From positions 1 to 20,745 of the IMG/VR virus record IMGVR_UViG_3300044615_001577: a stretch of DNA of 20,745 nucleotides; one strand, given 5' to 3'. Shown in pieces: positions 3,749 through 20,669 of the stretch. The translations under genes and the position numbers were made by a program. Every line of letters begins with the position of its first letter. Position 1 is the stretch's first letter. Below the pieces are notes generated by a model, which saw nothing but the letters and a program-made list of their open reading frames with translations, was not told the origin of the DNA and did no database searches. The DNA is from a virus.

Positions 3749-5278
3749 TTATTCTCCCTTATTAAGTTTTTTGCCTAGTCTAGCACATACGAATTCAACA
3801 AGTTCGGCACGGGTAGTGTCTATTGAAGAAACACTTTCTGAGCCAACAGATAAATTAACTGATTCTTCAGTTTCTACAGTATCAAGCAATTCTGGAGTAA
3901 CTTCTTCATTCTCGCTAGCTACTGATTCTTCTGCTTTATAATTGTTAGTAAAAAGTGTTTTGAATGTTTCAAATGTGTCATCATCAACTTTTTCTAGCTT
4001 ATCAACAGTTTCATTAGCTAATTCTTTAGCTACACCAAGATCGATAAGAGCGGCCATTCTTTTGTTCTTTTTCTCTTTTTTCATGTCTTCAACTTCTTTG
4101 GCCTTATAAGCAGCGATAGCTTCTTTAGCTTCTTCTAGTTCTGCTAGTGCAGCTTTGTATTTTGATTCATACTCAGCTTTCATTAGAGCAACTTCTTCTG
4201 CCATTTTCATAGCTTTCTCTTCGGCCATCTTCATAGCCTTTTCTTCTGCCATTTTCATGGCTCTCTCTTCAGCCATTTTCATAGCTTTTTCCTCAACCAT
4301 TTTCATGAGAGTATCTTCATCTTTATTCATTGGAACAGCAGCTTCGGTTTCTGTTGTGTTAGTCACTACTTCTGCTACTGGAGACTCATTGGTGTTTTCT
4401 GTGACCACTGATGCCTCCGATACTTCAGTTGCTACGTTATTTTGTGTTGTGTCTAAACTCATATCTATTGTCTCCGGTATACAGGTTGACTGATTCAGTA
4501 ATACACCTAATTCTTCGAAAGAATCATTTTTTTTATCACAAATACAACTTTGTGAAAAAATTATACTATCAGGATTAGCGGGCTTATTAACAAAACCCTT
4601 TCCAGAAAAAGTAATATTTCGTAAAACTCTACCAATTTTATAGTTCTCATGTTGGCCAACTCCACCATAAGCTCGTAAAAACTTGGTTAAATGGGCCGTA
4701 CTTTCGTTTCTTGGTAATGTAGAATATTTACCATTTTTAGTATTTAGCAATCCATAATCAAATCCTTTAAAAAAACATTCCATACTTACAAATTTGGTTC
4801 CATTTTCAATTTCTGAAATTAATGTTTCTGCTCTATTTTTAAGTTCAGGATCTGTAAATCCCCTATAAATAACGGATCCTGTTAATATATGATATTTATC
4901 TGGTAGTTGATCTAATGGAATATCTTTATCTATAATATTTCCACTATCATCAATTGGCCAATTAGCAGTTATGTGGCCGATTATAGTATTTTCATCGTGT
5001 TCAAGATTTGTTGGTTTGTCTTCTGGAGAATCTTTTGCTGCCCAAACTTCTGCTTTGTCAAAAATATCATCATTTTTATTCCAAGATGAACTTACTAAAA
5101 TAGATTGAACATAATATAAATCAGAATCTTTGACAGATGCTTCGCTTTTTACCATACATCTCATTGCTGGTTCGTCTTTAGAATCAGCTTTTTCTGCAAT
5201 AGATGCATAGGTTATGGATGCGGATGATTTGATAATATCTTCTAGACCATCTTCTTGTTCGGCAATAAATATATTCAT
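3749..5278 (-). CDS. Prohead maturation protease fused to scaffold-like domain
   Basis: 509 residues; ATG at 5278, only 2 bp after the portal stop. Residues about 38-240 look like a phage prohead serine protease: a candidate His in NLEHDENTIIGHI (H94) and a candidate Ser in KFVSMECFF (S165), followed by FSGKGFVNKPANP (224-236). The rest (about 280-509) is acidic and helical and contains four consecutive 8-residue repeats of the type KAMKMAEE (331-362, DNA 4193-4288), then a Lys/Glu coiled coil, then an acidic tail. Such a protease plus scaffold fusion would form the core of the procapsid and then cut itself and the capsid N-termini. The catalytic assignments are from motif shape only. Position between portal and capsid supports the role. 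Confidence 0.8.
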   Translation of the reverse strand: MNIFIAEQEDGLEDIIKSSASITYASIAEKADSKDEPAMRCMVKSEASVKDSDLYYVQSILVSSSWNKNDDIFDKAEVWAAKDSPEDKPTNLEHDENTIIGHITANWPIDDSGNIIDKDIPLDQLPDKYHILTGSVIYRGFTDPELKNRAETLISEIENGTKFVSMECFFKGFDYGLLNTKNGKYSTLPRNESTAHLTKFLRAYGGVGQHENYKIGRVLRNITFSGKGFVNKPANPDSIIFSQSCICDKKNDSFEELGVLLNQSTCIPETIDMSLDTTQNNVATEVSEASVVTENTNESPVAEVVTNTTETEAAVPMNKDEDTLMKMVEEKAMKMAEERAMKMAEEKAMKMAEEKAMKMAEEVALMKAEYESKYKAALAELEEAKEAIAAYKAKEVEDMKKEKKNKRMAALIDLGVAKELANETVDKLEKVDDDTFETFKTLFTNNYKAEESVASENEEVTPELLDTVETEESVNLSVGSESVSSIDTTRAELVEFVCARLGKKLNKGE

Positions 5279-13907: not shown

Positions 13908-13941
13908 TAAAATGAAAAAACCCCCCTACTAAGCGGGTGAC

Positions 13942-14015
13942 GCAAAATGCTGTGCAAAATGCTACAGTATGACGCAAAATGCTACAGTGATCCTTACCCC
14001 CGTCTCAAATTGAGA
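13942..14015 (+). promoter_or_regulatory. Enhancer-like array, cassette 1
   Basis: Three GCAAAATGC sites (13942-13950, 13954-13962, 13974-13982; several flanked as TGT..ACA), then the dyad TCTCAAATTGAGA at 14003-14015. The dyad centre is 65 bp upstream of the GG of the -24 element; the three sites are 63, 51 and 31 bp upstream of the dyad centre. The same geometry is found at the two other cassettes. Confidence 0.7.
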
Positions 14016-14608: not shown

Positions 14609-14809
14609 ATGGATACTAACTACTTTCAATCGTCGTTCGAGAGTATGGAAACGAGTACCATACGATTGTGGCTCCACGAAGCCCAAGTACGACTGCCCCA
14701 TGAGAGCGGTAGCGTTCGTGAAATACTGAAGGAAGGTATACGCGCGTCTGCTCGTGAACTGTTGTACAGGTATAGGGAAGAGTCTCGCAGGCTGAACGCT
14801 AGAGCGTAA
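14609..14809 (+). CDS. Small helical basic protein, unknown function
   Basis: 66 residues, ATG at 14609 immediately after the previous stop. The product is helical, with an Arg-rich amphipathic C-terminal part (GIRASARELLYRYREESRRL, about 44-63) and N-terminal SSFESMETSTIRLWLHE. No known motif. An alternative frame-shifted reading is not supported by spacing. Its tail runs to within 3 bp of the dyad pair that begins cassette 2. It could be an RNA- or DNA-binding accessory protein, which is inference from its basic helix. Confidence 0.7.
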   Translation: MDTNYFQSSFESMETSTIRLWLHEAQVRLPHESGSVREILKEGIRASARELLYRYREESRRLNARA

Positions 14810-14885
14810 ACCCTTGCACCGTAAGGACTTACGGCGAAATCGGGCCGCCATTTTTGACGTAACTCCTTATGTATCAAGCACTTAC
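14806..14885 (+). repeat. Tandem pair of 27-bp dyads (array A)
   Basis: Dyads at 14806-14832 and 14859-14885, both of form GTAAnnnCTT, 7 bp, AAGnnnTTAC. Equivalent positions are 53 bp apart, and exactly 26 bp (GC-rich, GGCGAAATCGGGCCGCC at its start) separate the two. The first begins inside the end of the preceding coding frame. Confidence 0.85.
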
Positions 14886-14907
14886 GTCGCCCCCCAAAGG
14901 TGGTGTA

Positions 14908-15604: not shown

Positions 15605-15631
15605 CATTTGTTCAGTAGATCATAACTTGAC

Positions 15632-15711
15632 GCAAACCCTTGTCCCATAAGGACTTACGGCGAAATCGGGCCGCCCCGCTCGACGTAAACCCTTGTGCAA
15701 CAACAACTTAC
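15632..15711 (+). repeat. Tandem pair of 27-bp dyads (array B)
   Basis: Dyads at 15632-15658 and 15685-15711; first bases GCAA and GTAA, ends TTAC. Same 53-bp repeat and 26-bp GC-rich spacer (GGCGAAATCGGGCCGCC) as array A. Followed by CAAAGGTGGTGTAGCAAAAT as at cassette 2. Confidence 0.85.
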
Positions 15712-15732
15712 AGCGACTCCAAAGGTGGTGTA

Positions 15733-15805
15733 GCAAAATGCTGTGCAAAATGCTACAGTGTGTGGCAAAATGCTACAGTGCCACGAATCGCGTCTCAAAC
15801 TGAGA
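15733..15805 (+). promoter_or_regulatory. Enhancer-like array, cassette 3
   Basis: GCAAAATGC at 15733-15741, 15745-15753 and 15765-15773; dyad TCTCAAACTGAGA at 15793-15805. The dyad centre is 65 bp before the GG at 15864; the three sites are 62, 50 and 30 bp before the dyad centre. The stretch 15605-15907 is entirely regulatory: pair of dyads, this array, one more dyad, promoter. Confidence 0.75.
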
Positions 15806-16572: not shown

Positions 16573-16620
16573 GATTGTCTCAGCATAACCTGTCGGTTTG
16601 CAAGAGTGGCTATAGCCAGC

Positions 16621-16700
16621 GTAAACCCTTGAACCGTAAGGACTTACGGCGAAATCGGGCCGCCCCCGGCGACGTAACTCCATATGGGACAAGCACTTAC
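16621..16700 (+). repeat. Tandem pair of 27-bp dyads (array C)
   Basis: Dyads at 16621-16647 and 16674-16700 with the same 53-bp repeat distance and 26-bp spacer GGCGAAATCGGGCCGCC... as arrays A and B. No -24/-12 promoter follows; a sigma-70 promoter does. Confidence 0.85.
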
Positions 16701-16760
16701 GACGAGTAGCAAAGCAAACGCTGTGCCACAAAAAATAATCTTTTTTCTAAGATTTTCTGC

Positions 16761-17295: not shown

Positions 17296-17502
17296 ATGAT
17301 CGATTACATTTGCGATAACATCACGGTTGACAATGATTCGGAAGATGGTATTTTTCTTGGAAACAAGATGGTTGTAATTTCTGTTCCGGAGTGTGGCGGT
17401 ACTGATCCTTTGGACAGGTATGACCACCTTGTGTCAATATCCGGAGCGTTGGAAAATGCTCTGGACTGCGGTGTACGCTCGTTCAGTTACAGTAAGATTT
17501 GA
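17296..17502 (+). CDS. Small acidic protein, unknown function
   Basis: 68 residues, ATG at 17296 preceded by GGGGAGGATTTCTGAAT, i.e. the ribosome site lies within the end of the upstream gene. Beta-rich (KMVVISVPECGGT) with an acidic N-terminus (MIDYICDNITVDNDSEDG). No motif recognised. Last gene of a three-gene transcript from the promoter at 16761; array D begins 2 bp after its stop codon. Confidence 0.68.
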   Translation: MIDYICDNITVDNDSEDGIFLGNKMVVISVPECGGTDPLDRYDHLVSISGALENALDCGVRSFSYSKI

Positions 17503-17503
17503 A

Positions 17504-17583
17504 GCAAACCCTTGCCGCGTAAGGACTTACGACGCGGCGGGCGGCACGATTTTGATGTAAGTGCTTACTGCACAAGCACTTAG
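17504..17583 (+). repeat. Tandem pair of 27-bp dyads (array D)
   Basis: Dyads at 17504-17530 and 17557-17583. The second is the most perfect copy: GTAAGTGCTT, 7 bp, AAGCACTTAG. Same 53-bp repeat distance; the 26-bp spacer is diverged in sequence but still GC-rich. Confidence 0.85.
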
Positions 17584-17601
17584 AAAATATTGCAGTTTTT
17601 C

Positions 17602-18509: not shown

Positions 18510-18586
18510 TTAGTAGTTTTCATGCTTTTGTAATTATCTCTTGTGCTTTTATCATGTATTTTGCCATTATGACCGATAGTTTATAA
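18506..18586 (+). CDS. 26-aa membrane peptide, coupled to the 23-aa gene
   Basis: ATG at 18506 within the overlap; GGAGG at 18491-18495 inside the upstream gene serves as ribosome site. Hydrophobic from residue 5 to 22 (FHAFVIISCAFIMYFAIM), thus a second single-span peptide. Stop TAA at 18584-18586 overlaps the start of array E by 4 bp. Unknown function; both peptides would be made from the same short transcript. Confidence 0.6.
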   Translation: MISSFHAFVIISCAFIMYFAIMTDSL

Positions 18587-18662
18587 ATCCTTGTCCTGTA
18601 AGGACTTAGATCAAAACGGTGCGGCCGACTTTGGCGTAAGTGCTTAATCCTCAACACCTTAC
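18583..18662 (+). repeat. Tandem pair of 27-bp dyads (array E)
   Basis: Dyads at 18583-18609 (more diverged at its start) and 18636-18662 (GTAAGTGCTT start, TTAC end). Same 53-bp distance and 26-bp spacer. Confidence 0.82.
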
Positions 18663-18691
18663 GTCAAAAAGATTTTTCTAAAGATTACCTC

Positions 18692-19702: not shown

Positions 19703-19718
19703 GTATCGCCCCATCGCT

Positions 19719-19798
19719 CTAAGTTCTTGCTAGTAAAGGACTTAGGGCGAGATGGGCGGGCCGGCCGCGACGTAAGTGCTTACTTATCAACCACTTAG
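19719..19798 (+). repeat. Tandem pair of 27-bp dyads (array F)
   Basis: Dyads at 19719-19745 (diverged) and 19772-19798 (GTAAGTGCTT start). Same 53-bp distance and 26-bp spacer, here GGGCGGGCCGGCCGC-rich. Confidence 0.82.
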
Positions 19799-19818
19799 GA
19801 TTTTCTAAAGAAAACCTC

Positions 19819-19866: not shown

Positions 19867-20046
19867 ATGAGTTATACTTGGGCCGTTTGGCAAAATAATC
19901 GTCTGGTGGGTTATGTTAAATCACCTAGCGAATGGGATGCTATTAGATTAGCCCATAGCAATTATGGGTCTTGTTTGTATGTGGAACGATGTTTGGCTGG
20001 TGTGTGTCCAAAAAATCTTCAAGAAAATGTCTTGACAGGCCGATAA
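19867..20046 (+). CDS. 59-aa protein, unknown function
   Basis: ATG at 19867 with AACAGGAGAAAATT upstream, TAA at 20044-20046. It starts SYTWAVWQNNRLVGYVKSPS, a beta pattern typical of small phage accessory proteins, continues with a helix SEWDAIRLAHSNYG, and has three Cys (36, 42, 47). It may be a small metal-binding or soluble protein; not recognised. Its last codons include the -35 (TTGACA) of the next promoter at 20032. Confidence 0.65.
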   Translation: MSYTWAVWQNNRLVGYVKSPSEWDAIRLAHSNYGSCLYVERCLAGVCPKNLQENVLTGR

Positions 20047-20059
20047 TAGAGTGTAGAAT
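20032..20059 (+). promoter_or_regulatory. Class I sigma-70 promoter for the structured region
   Basis: TTGACA (20032-20037), 16-bp spacer with GCCGATAATA, TAGAAT (20054-20059). It drives the 386-bp non-coding stretch and possibly the gene at 20433. Confidence 0.75.
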
Positions 20060-20065
20060 ACAAAC

Positions 20066-20385
20066 TTCCGTGGGTCCATGCTCAAGGGACTAGATAGGGA
20101 TAAGCCATTACGATAAACCTACGGCTGTTATGCAGCGTGGGGTTGACAGCGGGCTTATACGCTGTATAGTAGTGCCTATCTATGTGGGATTGCGTCCAGA
20201 CCACGGCCAATACAAAGACAGGCGGAGTAACTGAGGCGCTTCTAAGTGTAAGTGTCCCGGCCTGTCTAAAATACAACCAGTAACCGTTCCCAAGAGCCAG
20301 ACGATATGAGTCATGAACATATCTAGGGAGGATTTCCGTGGACGGTTTCTTACTGGTCCGTAACAGGGCTACCAGTAAGGCTAGA
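20066..20385 (+). ncRNA. Candidate structured RNA or structured 5' leader
   Basis: The stretch 20047-20432 has no credible gene. Behind the promoter at 20032 several long complementary segments nest or follow one another: CCGTGGGTC (20068-20076) with GACCACGG (20199-20206, one bulge); TAGATAGG (20091-20098) with CCTATCTA (20175-20182); ATAAGCC (20100-20106) with GGCTTAT (20152-20158); an 11-bp bulged hairpin at 20116-20144 with a 5-nt loop; AGACAGGC (20216-20223) with GCCTGTCT (20260-20267); GATATG with CATATC (20303-20323); CTTACTGG (20349-20356) with CCAGTAAG (20372-20379). An alternative pairing links CCAGTAACCGT (about 20277-20287) to the ACGGTTTCTTACTGG region. No tRNA, tmRNA, or group I intron core was recognised. 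It may be a stand-alone RNA or a leader for the gene at 20433. Confidence 0.5.
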
Positions 20386-20432
20386 ATCGGGGCGTAAAAG
20401 ATTCGCTGGTTTACAATACTAAGGAAATAAAA

Positions 20433-20669
20433 ATGACCGTTAACGAACTTATTGAGCAGTTGAAGAATTATCCGTCCGATATGAGGGTTCTTACTCTTGG
20501 TTATGAGGGTGGGTATGATGATGTCAACCTCAAGACTAAGGATATTATTTTCAATGTGAATAGTAAGGATACTTGGTATCTTGGTAGCCATGACGAACCG
20601 GGCATGGTGAATAATATAGATAATGATGAAACCGGAACAAAGTGTGTTGTTATTGTGAGAACAGCATGA
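20433..20669 (+). CDS. Conserved small phage/bacterial protein, unknown
   Basis: 78 residues, ATG at 20433 preceded by CTAAGGAAATAA. The N-terminus (TVNELIEQLKNYPSDMRVLT, LGYEGGYDDVNLK) is a widespread pattern in uncharacterised phage and bacterial proteins: a helix followed by DMxV and EGGYDDV. It ends in a GTKCVVIVRTA strand. Its stop overlaps the next ATG as ATGA. It follows the structured region, whose output could control it. Confidence 0.78.
   Translation: MTVNELIEQLKNYPSDMRVLTLGYEGGYDDVNLKTKDIIFNVNSKDTWYLGSHDEPGMVNNIDNDETGTKCVVIVRTA

Follow-up and report, generated by a model that had tools for sequence, protein, structure and literature searches.

What kind of genetic element occupies the noncoding stretch at positions 20047-20432, at the right-hand end of the 20,745-base IMG/VR virus record IMGVR_UViG_3300044615_001577? 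The record, analysed at its full length and called the window below, belongs to a tailed phage that has only distant cultured relatives. An earlier note, made from the letters alone, had proposed either a novel noncoding RNA or riboswitch-like control of the 78-aa gene that follows. Phage noncoding RNAs besides tRNAs are few and mostly unexplained. We are nearly certain that the stretch is a real array of structured noncoding RNAs, and sequence comparison points to a family of viral noncoding RNAs outside the Rfam library.

Searches and alignments

IMG/VR was searched with the 78-aa neighbor, which gave about 40 loci at which the noncoding stretch was conserved besides the gene. Pattern scans for the modules M3, M1, and M2 (Table 1) and profile searches enlarged this set to 88 distinct related arrays in IMG/VR contigs, with 78 distinct sequences of M1, 75 of M3, and 6 of M2. 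The M1 covariance model was built on 35 sequences without the pseudoknot and then used to align the 78. Thirteen module seeds were followed across loci. The reference set for newness comprised Rfam 15, 50,697 phage records, and the open-access literature.

Table 1. Features of the array and its surroundings (window positions, except for the Pistol matches, which are numbered in their own loci)
Feature	Position	Strand	Details
Array promoter	20032-20059	+	TTGACA 20032-20037, 16-nt spacer, TAGAAT 20054-20059; scan 11/12 matches
M1, pseudoknotted RNA	20068-20206	+	78 homologues aligned; covariation
M1 P1	20068-20073/20201-20206	+	
M1 P2	20074-20077/20087-20090	+	
M1 P3	20092-20098/20175-20181	+	
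M1 P4	20100-20106/20152-20158	+	pseudoknot
M1 P5	20116-20119/20141-20144	+	
M1 P6	20146-20151/20160-20165	+	
M1 P7	20186-20190/20194-20198	+	
Linker AATACAA, M1-M2	20209-20215	+	sequence; after M1 nearly invariant among relatives
M2, small closed RNA	20216-20267	+	optional module; 6 distinct homologues; z -3.6
M2 closing stem	20216-20223/20260-20267		AGACAGGC / GCCTGTCT
Linker AATACAA, M2-M3	20270-20276	+	sequence; last two bases paired in M3 P1
M3	20275-20411	+	75 distinct homologues; 32-sequence alignment
M3 P1	20275-20280/20406-20411	+	AACCAG / CTGGTT
M3 P2	20282-20286/20343-20347	+	
M3 P3	20349-20357/20371-20379	+	exchangeable hairpin
M3 P4	20384-20388/20400-20404	+	GAATC / GATTC; conserved loop GGGGCGTAAAA 20389-20399
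78-aa protein gene	20433-20669	+	PHROG 5861/7217, function-unassigned family; neighbor of array
Inverted-repeat pair	20068-20073/20201-20206		outer pair of M1
Inverted-repeat pair	20100-20106/20152-20158		
Inverted-repeat pair	20216-20232/20251-20267		
Inverted-repeat pair	20276-20283/20350-20357		
Inverted-repeat pair	20279-20287/20342-20350		
Inverted-repeat pair	20349-20357/20371-20379		
Pistol match, L084	7896-7958		
Pistol match, L085	8135-8197		
Pistol match, L086	7889-7951		
Pistol match, L089	7523-7585		
Pistol match, L091	8134-8196		
Pistol match, L095	7900-7962		
Pistol match, L105	7493-7555		

Architecture and predicted transcription

The complementary segments described in the earlier note are all present, among 18 inverted-repeat pairs of 6-17 nt in 20047-20432. 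The note had nested them as outer and inner hairpins of one RNA; the hairpins hold up, and the single RNA gives way to three separate closed domains at 20054-20419 (M1, M2, and M3), each shut by its own terminal stem and joined to the next by an AATACAA linker, which is also found at other module boundaries in relatives. The interior of M2 carries invariant GGAGTAACTGAGGCGC and GTGTCCCG; M2 was also considered as a known ribozyme, for which Rfam gives no match. The note had seen no coding frame, and there is no plus-strand ORF of at least 50 aa inside the region. A 169-aa minus-strand ORF overlaps it and is regarded as mechanical because 68 of 72 homologous arrays lack any frame open throughout. 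On these reading frames, the array is noncoding.

The promoter claimed ahead of the region is in place (TTGACA-16-TAGAAT) and shares a GCCGATA spacer motif with other promoters of the same phage. Its predicted transcription start, at about 20066-20068, coincides with the base of M1, and a promoter of the same type precedes 63 of the 66 homologous arrays (shuffles would give 0.5). An internal candidate, TTGACA..TATAGT at 20143-20170, was rejected: the P5 and P6 strands account for it better, since many relatives have TTGCC there. No intrinsic terminator was found after M3 in the window, so in this phage the array and the 78-aa gene may share a transcript. Elsewhere in the window, an 87-nt intergenic repeat of the hairpin type AACCCTTG...AAGGACTTACG occurs six times ahead of early genes (14803-14889, 15629-15715, 16618-16704, 17501-17587, 18580-18666, and 19716-19802), and similar elements precede promoters in relatives. 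Two 64-nt intergenic repeats (13926-13989 and 15717-15780) are made from GCAAAATGCTACAGTG-type units.

Conservation of structure

Folding energy was set aside as proof of structure, being too weak: the z scores are modest (M1 -1.9, M2 -3.6, M3 -1.6), and that of the whole stretch, -1.2, is not clearly beyond chance. The array stands far above chance because it is conserved with compensatory change in relatives. In the 78-sequence alignment of M1, both sides are altered at 25 of 39 pairs, and 96% of cells hold standard pairs, against 88% in shuffles and 34-44% with a slid partner strand; none of 500 shuffles matched the M1 covariation. The pseudoknot P4 covaries although it lay outside the model, with one pair being C-G in 41 distinct sequences and G-C in 30. 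Conserved nucleotides outside the M1 helices are scattered. In M3, 98.8% of cells are paired across the 32 aligned sequences, the outer stems are nearly invariant, and P4 has compensatory changes at four of five pairs around a terminal loop conserved as GG, two variable bases, and CGTAAA. P3 is replaced by unrelated hairpins in other copies and is absent from 7 of 55 parsed copies. The covariation over homologous loci that the earlier note had called for is thus found in M1, above both shuffled and slid controls, and in P4 of M3.

Wobble pairs give the sense of the structure, since GU cells in M1 number 214 against 14 for AC and the functional strand is therefore the plus-strand RNA. The same count bears on whether the hairpins act as DNA, in an origin, packaging, or recombination site. 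Inverted repeats, freely recombining modules, and a single site per genome would all suit such an element, but the GU excess indicates that one strand is under selection as RNA, a pseudoknot is a fold of the RNA type, and the promoter is directed into the array, so that we consider a DNA element extremely improbable.

Distribution and exchange of modules

M1 occupies one locus per large record, at times as a tandem pair, and was present in 9 of 10 contigs of at least 150 kb found via the capsid protein. In IMGVR_UViG_3300044695_006747 (L224/L226, 186823 bases), both contig ends lie inside M1; the record may be a whole genome that assembly cut open within a tandem M1. Nearly all arrays that contain both modules have M1 ahead of M3 in the same orientation, and the spacing between them runs from abutting to more than 200 nt. 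Their identities are nearly uncorrelated over 2278 locus pairs (rank correlation rho 0.10), and in one example M3 is 99% alike while M1 is 61% alike. The modules are therefore exchanged independently of one another, the pattern to be expected of RNAs with separate functions.

Other phages carry extra modules on either side of M1 and M3 or between them. For 12 of the 13 seeds, all copies lie less than 900 nt from M1 or M3 and on the same strand. At least eleven further module families were counted (a-f, h, and j-m), nine of which have compensatory changes; family l has too few copies for folding, and family m folds poorly. Family n, with almost no structure, was left out of the count. Seed g also stands alone about 1 kb downstream of the 78-aa homologue at many loci. 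A separate, conserved structured element of the type GGGCCGCTGGCAGAATGATATCAAAGAAGCCACGG... was seen at L085:5920-6004, L088:6204-6288, and L084:6107-6186 and in about 40 other distinct copies; its closing stems vary, it follows the 78-aa homologue at a distance of about 1 kb but is instead an array module in some phages, and it had no Rfam match in the loci scanned.

Among the 50,697 phage records, no cultured-phage DNA matched the array, even at E 10. The capsid protein had no matches among cultured phages, and the terminase had distant ones only (Bacillus, Staphylococcus, Microcystis, and a few other phages). The 78-aa protein has a weak match in Synechococcus phage B23, but neither M1 nor M3 occurs in that phage. 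In bacterial genomes, the M3 pattern found nothing, and M1 was found in a single Lake Lanier MAG contig, which we take for a stray fragment from this phage group because it has the same promoter, M1, M3, and 78-aa gene.

Relation to the 78-aa gene

A cis-acting leader or riboswitch would control the 78-aa gene through the competing pairings in M3. In the window, about 20 nt separate the end of M3 from the start codon, this interval contains no promoter, and TTACTGG is able to form either pairing, so the two exclusive pairings of the earlier note are possible there, both within M3. The rival pairing needs TTACTGG, however, which is present in 2 of 75 M3 copies, and there is thus no conserved switch. 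Nor is the place upstream of the gene fixed: in relatives, the 78-aa homologue lies 38-822 nt from M3, often with other ORFs between, and a separate promoter-like sequence lies downstream in 25 of the 88 arrays. Riboswitch-like control is accordingly very doubtful, and the gene is probably not the target of the RNA, although "leader" is literally possible in the window phage alone.

tRNA-like modules and comparison with known RNAs

The window had no match to Rfam 15 at gathering thresholds and, up to E 10, chance matches only, outside the element; relatives matched tRNA and Pistol only, outside M1-M3. The proposal of a novel noncoding RNA is strongly supported by the covariation. ARAGORN gives no tRNA in the region, in agreement with the earlier note. 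A cloverleaf with anticodon, T-loop, and CCA-capable acceptor was sought in M1 with ARAGORN and Rfam and was not found, the layout of P1, P2, and P7 being only loosely tRNA-like. A CCA tail on M1 was also rejected as not conserved (GCCA or ACCA in many copies; CTCTA, AGCA, or TTACA elsewhere).

Some modules of other arrays are tRNA-like. Family j is a tRNA-Glu-like RNA whose anticodon arm has a long insert. Genes of the tRNA-Glu-like kind were seen inside arrays at L182:995-1092 (minus strand), L186:3390-3487, L085:4087-4164, and L090 (about 3870-3972), and their anticodon arm has a long insert or an unusual replacement; in the L182 alignment, the long insert falls within the anticodon arm. 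Covariance scores as tRNA were 30.3 for L182, 28.7 for L186, and 33.3 for L085 (cut-off 29). Most relatives also have tRNA genes about 3 kb downstream, and Pistol ribozyme matches (50-56 bits) occur in this phage group at about the same distance from the array, close upstream of tRNA-Arg.

Pistol (RF02679) is, like M1, a small pseudoknotted RNA of the same phage region, but M1, M2, and M3 do not match it. The modules could themselves be self-processing, as new ribozymes or as processing signals, and cleave each other or the neighboring tRNA transcript; they are compact conserved domains with pseudoknots, the constant linkers resemble cut sites, and the Pistol matches occur in the same phages. 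Against this, no module matches a known Rfam ribozyme, loose E-values included, and the unpaired nucleotides conserved in M1 are scattered, which makes self-processing unlikely.

The nearest described kind is GOLLD and ROOL, large structured phage or prophage RNAs without assigned function in a similar setting, often beside tRNA islands. In GOLLD, the 3' region is conserved and the 5' region variable, and the linker sometimes contains tRNAs (PMC12286853). The array could likewise be one large ornate RNA forming a GOLLD/ROOL-like particle, with M1 and M3 conserved and the other modules as its variable middle or 5' part; M1 followed by M3 co-occurs in most arrays, and tRNA genes are nearby. However, M1 and M3 vary almost independently, each small domain has its own closing stem, the M1-M3 spacing is elastic, and there is no match in Rfam, where GOLLD and ROOL are included. 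A single ornate RNA is thus improbable. Phage tRNA clusters resemble the array as tandem RNA genes of the early region with gain and loss, and some array modules are tRNA-derived, but M1, M2, and M3 are not tRNAs, and the tRNA-like modules have a rebuilt anticodon arm. Phage T4 species 1 and 2 are non-tRNA stable RNAs of unassigned function from the tRNA-cluster transcript; the array is likened to them by description, not by sequence.

Proposed function

The locus is best explained as a polycistronic noncoding RNA gene, an RNA-only operon, of a large phage. Transcription is predicted to start from the phage-type promoter at the base of M1, and the RNA would fold into a string of independent domains, M1, M2, and M3, with single-stranded AAUACAA linkers between them. 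M1 and M3 would form the conserved core, and other domains, tRNA-like ones included, would be gained, lost, and swapped among related phages. Host RNases may cut the linkers and so release stable small RNAs, which would act in trans and not on the next gene; we somewhat favor released trans-acting RNAs. Their likeliest role may be to serve as structural decoys for, or to inhibit, host RNA-binding or tRNA-directed defense, because of the arms-race-like module turnover, the nearby tRNA cluster, and the tRNAs with a rebuilt anticodon arm. Both tRNA-directed immunity and its evasion by phages are established (PMC13096335, PMC12851939, PMC11455837), which is a further reason for this suggestion. 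M1 itself is not recognized as a tRNA, so a tRNA-decoy role would apply to it by analogy with neighboring modules, and counter-defense decoys specifically are conceivable but rather unlikely on our analysis. As a whole, a combinatorial locus of RNA cassettes, some made from tRNAs, serving a large clade of uncultivated phages as a trans-acting, RNA-only arsenal for counter-defense or host takeover with no described counterpart, is put forward tentatively.

The locus gives two well-supported RNA families, M1 with its covarying pseudoknot and M3, together with at least eleven accessory families and a natural record of their shuffling. It makes testable the idea that phages may use interchangeable RNAs, tRNAs with altered anticodons included, against host defense or for takeover of the host's RNA machinery.
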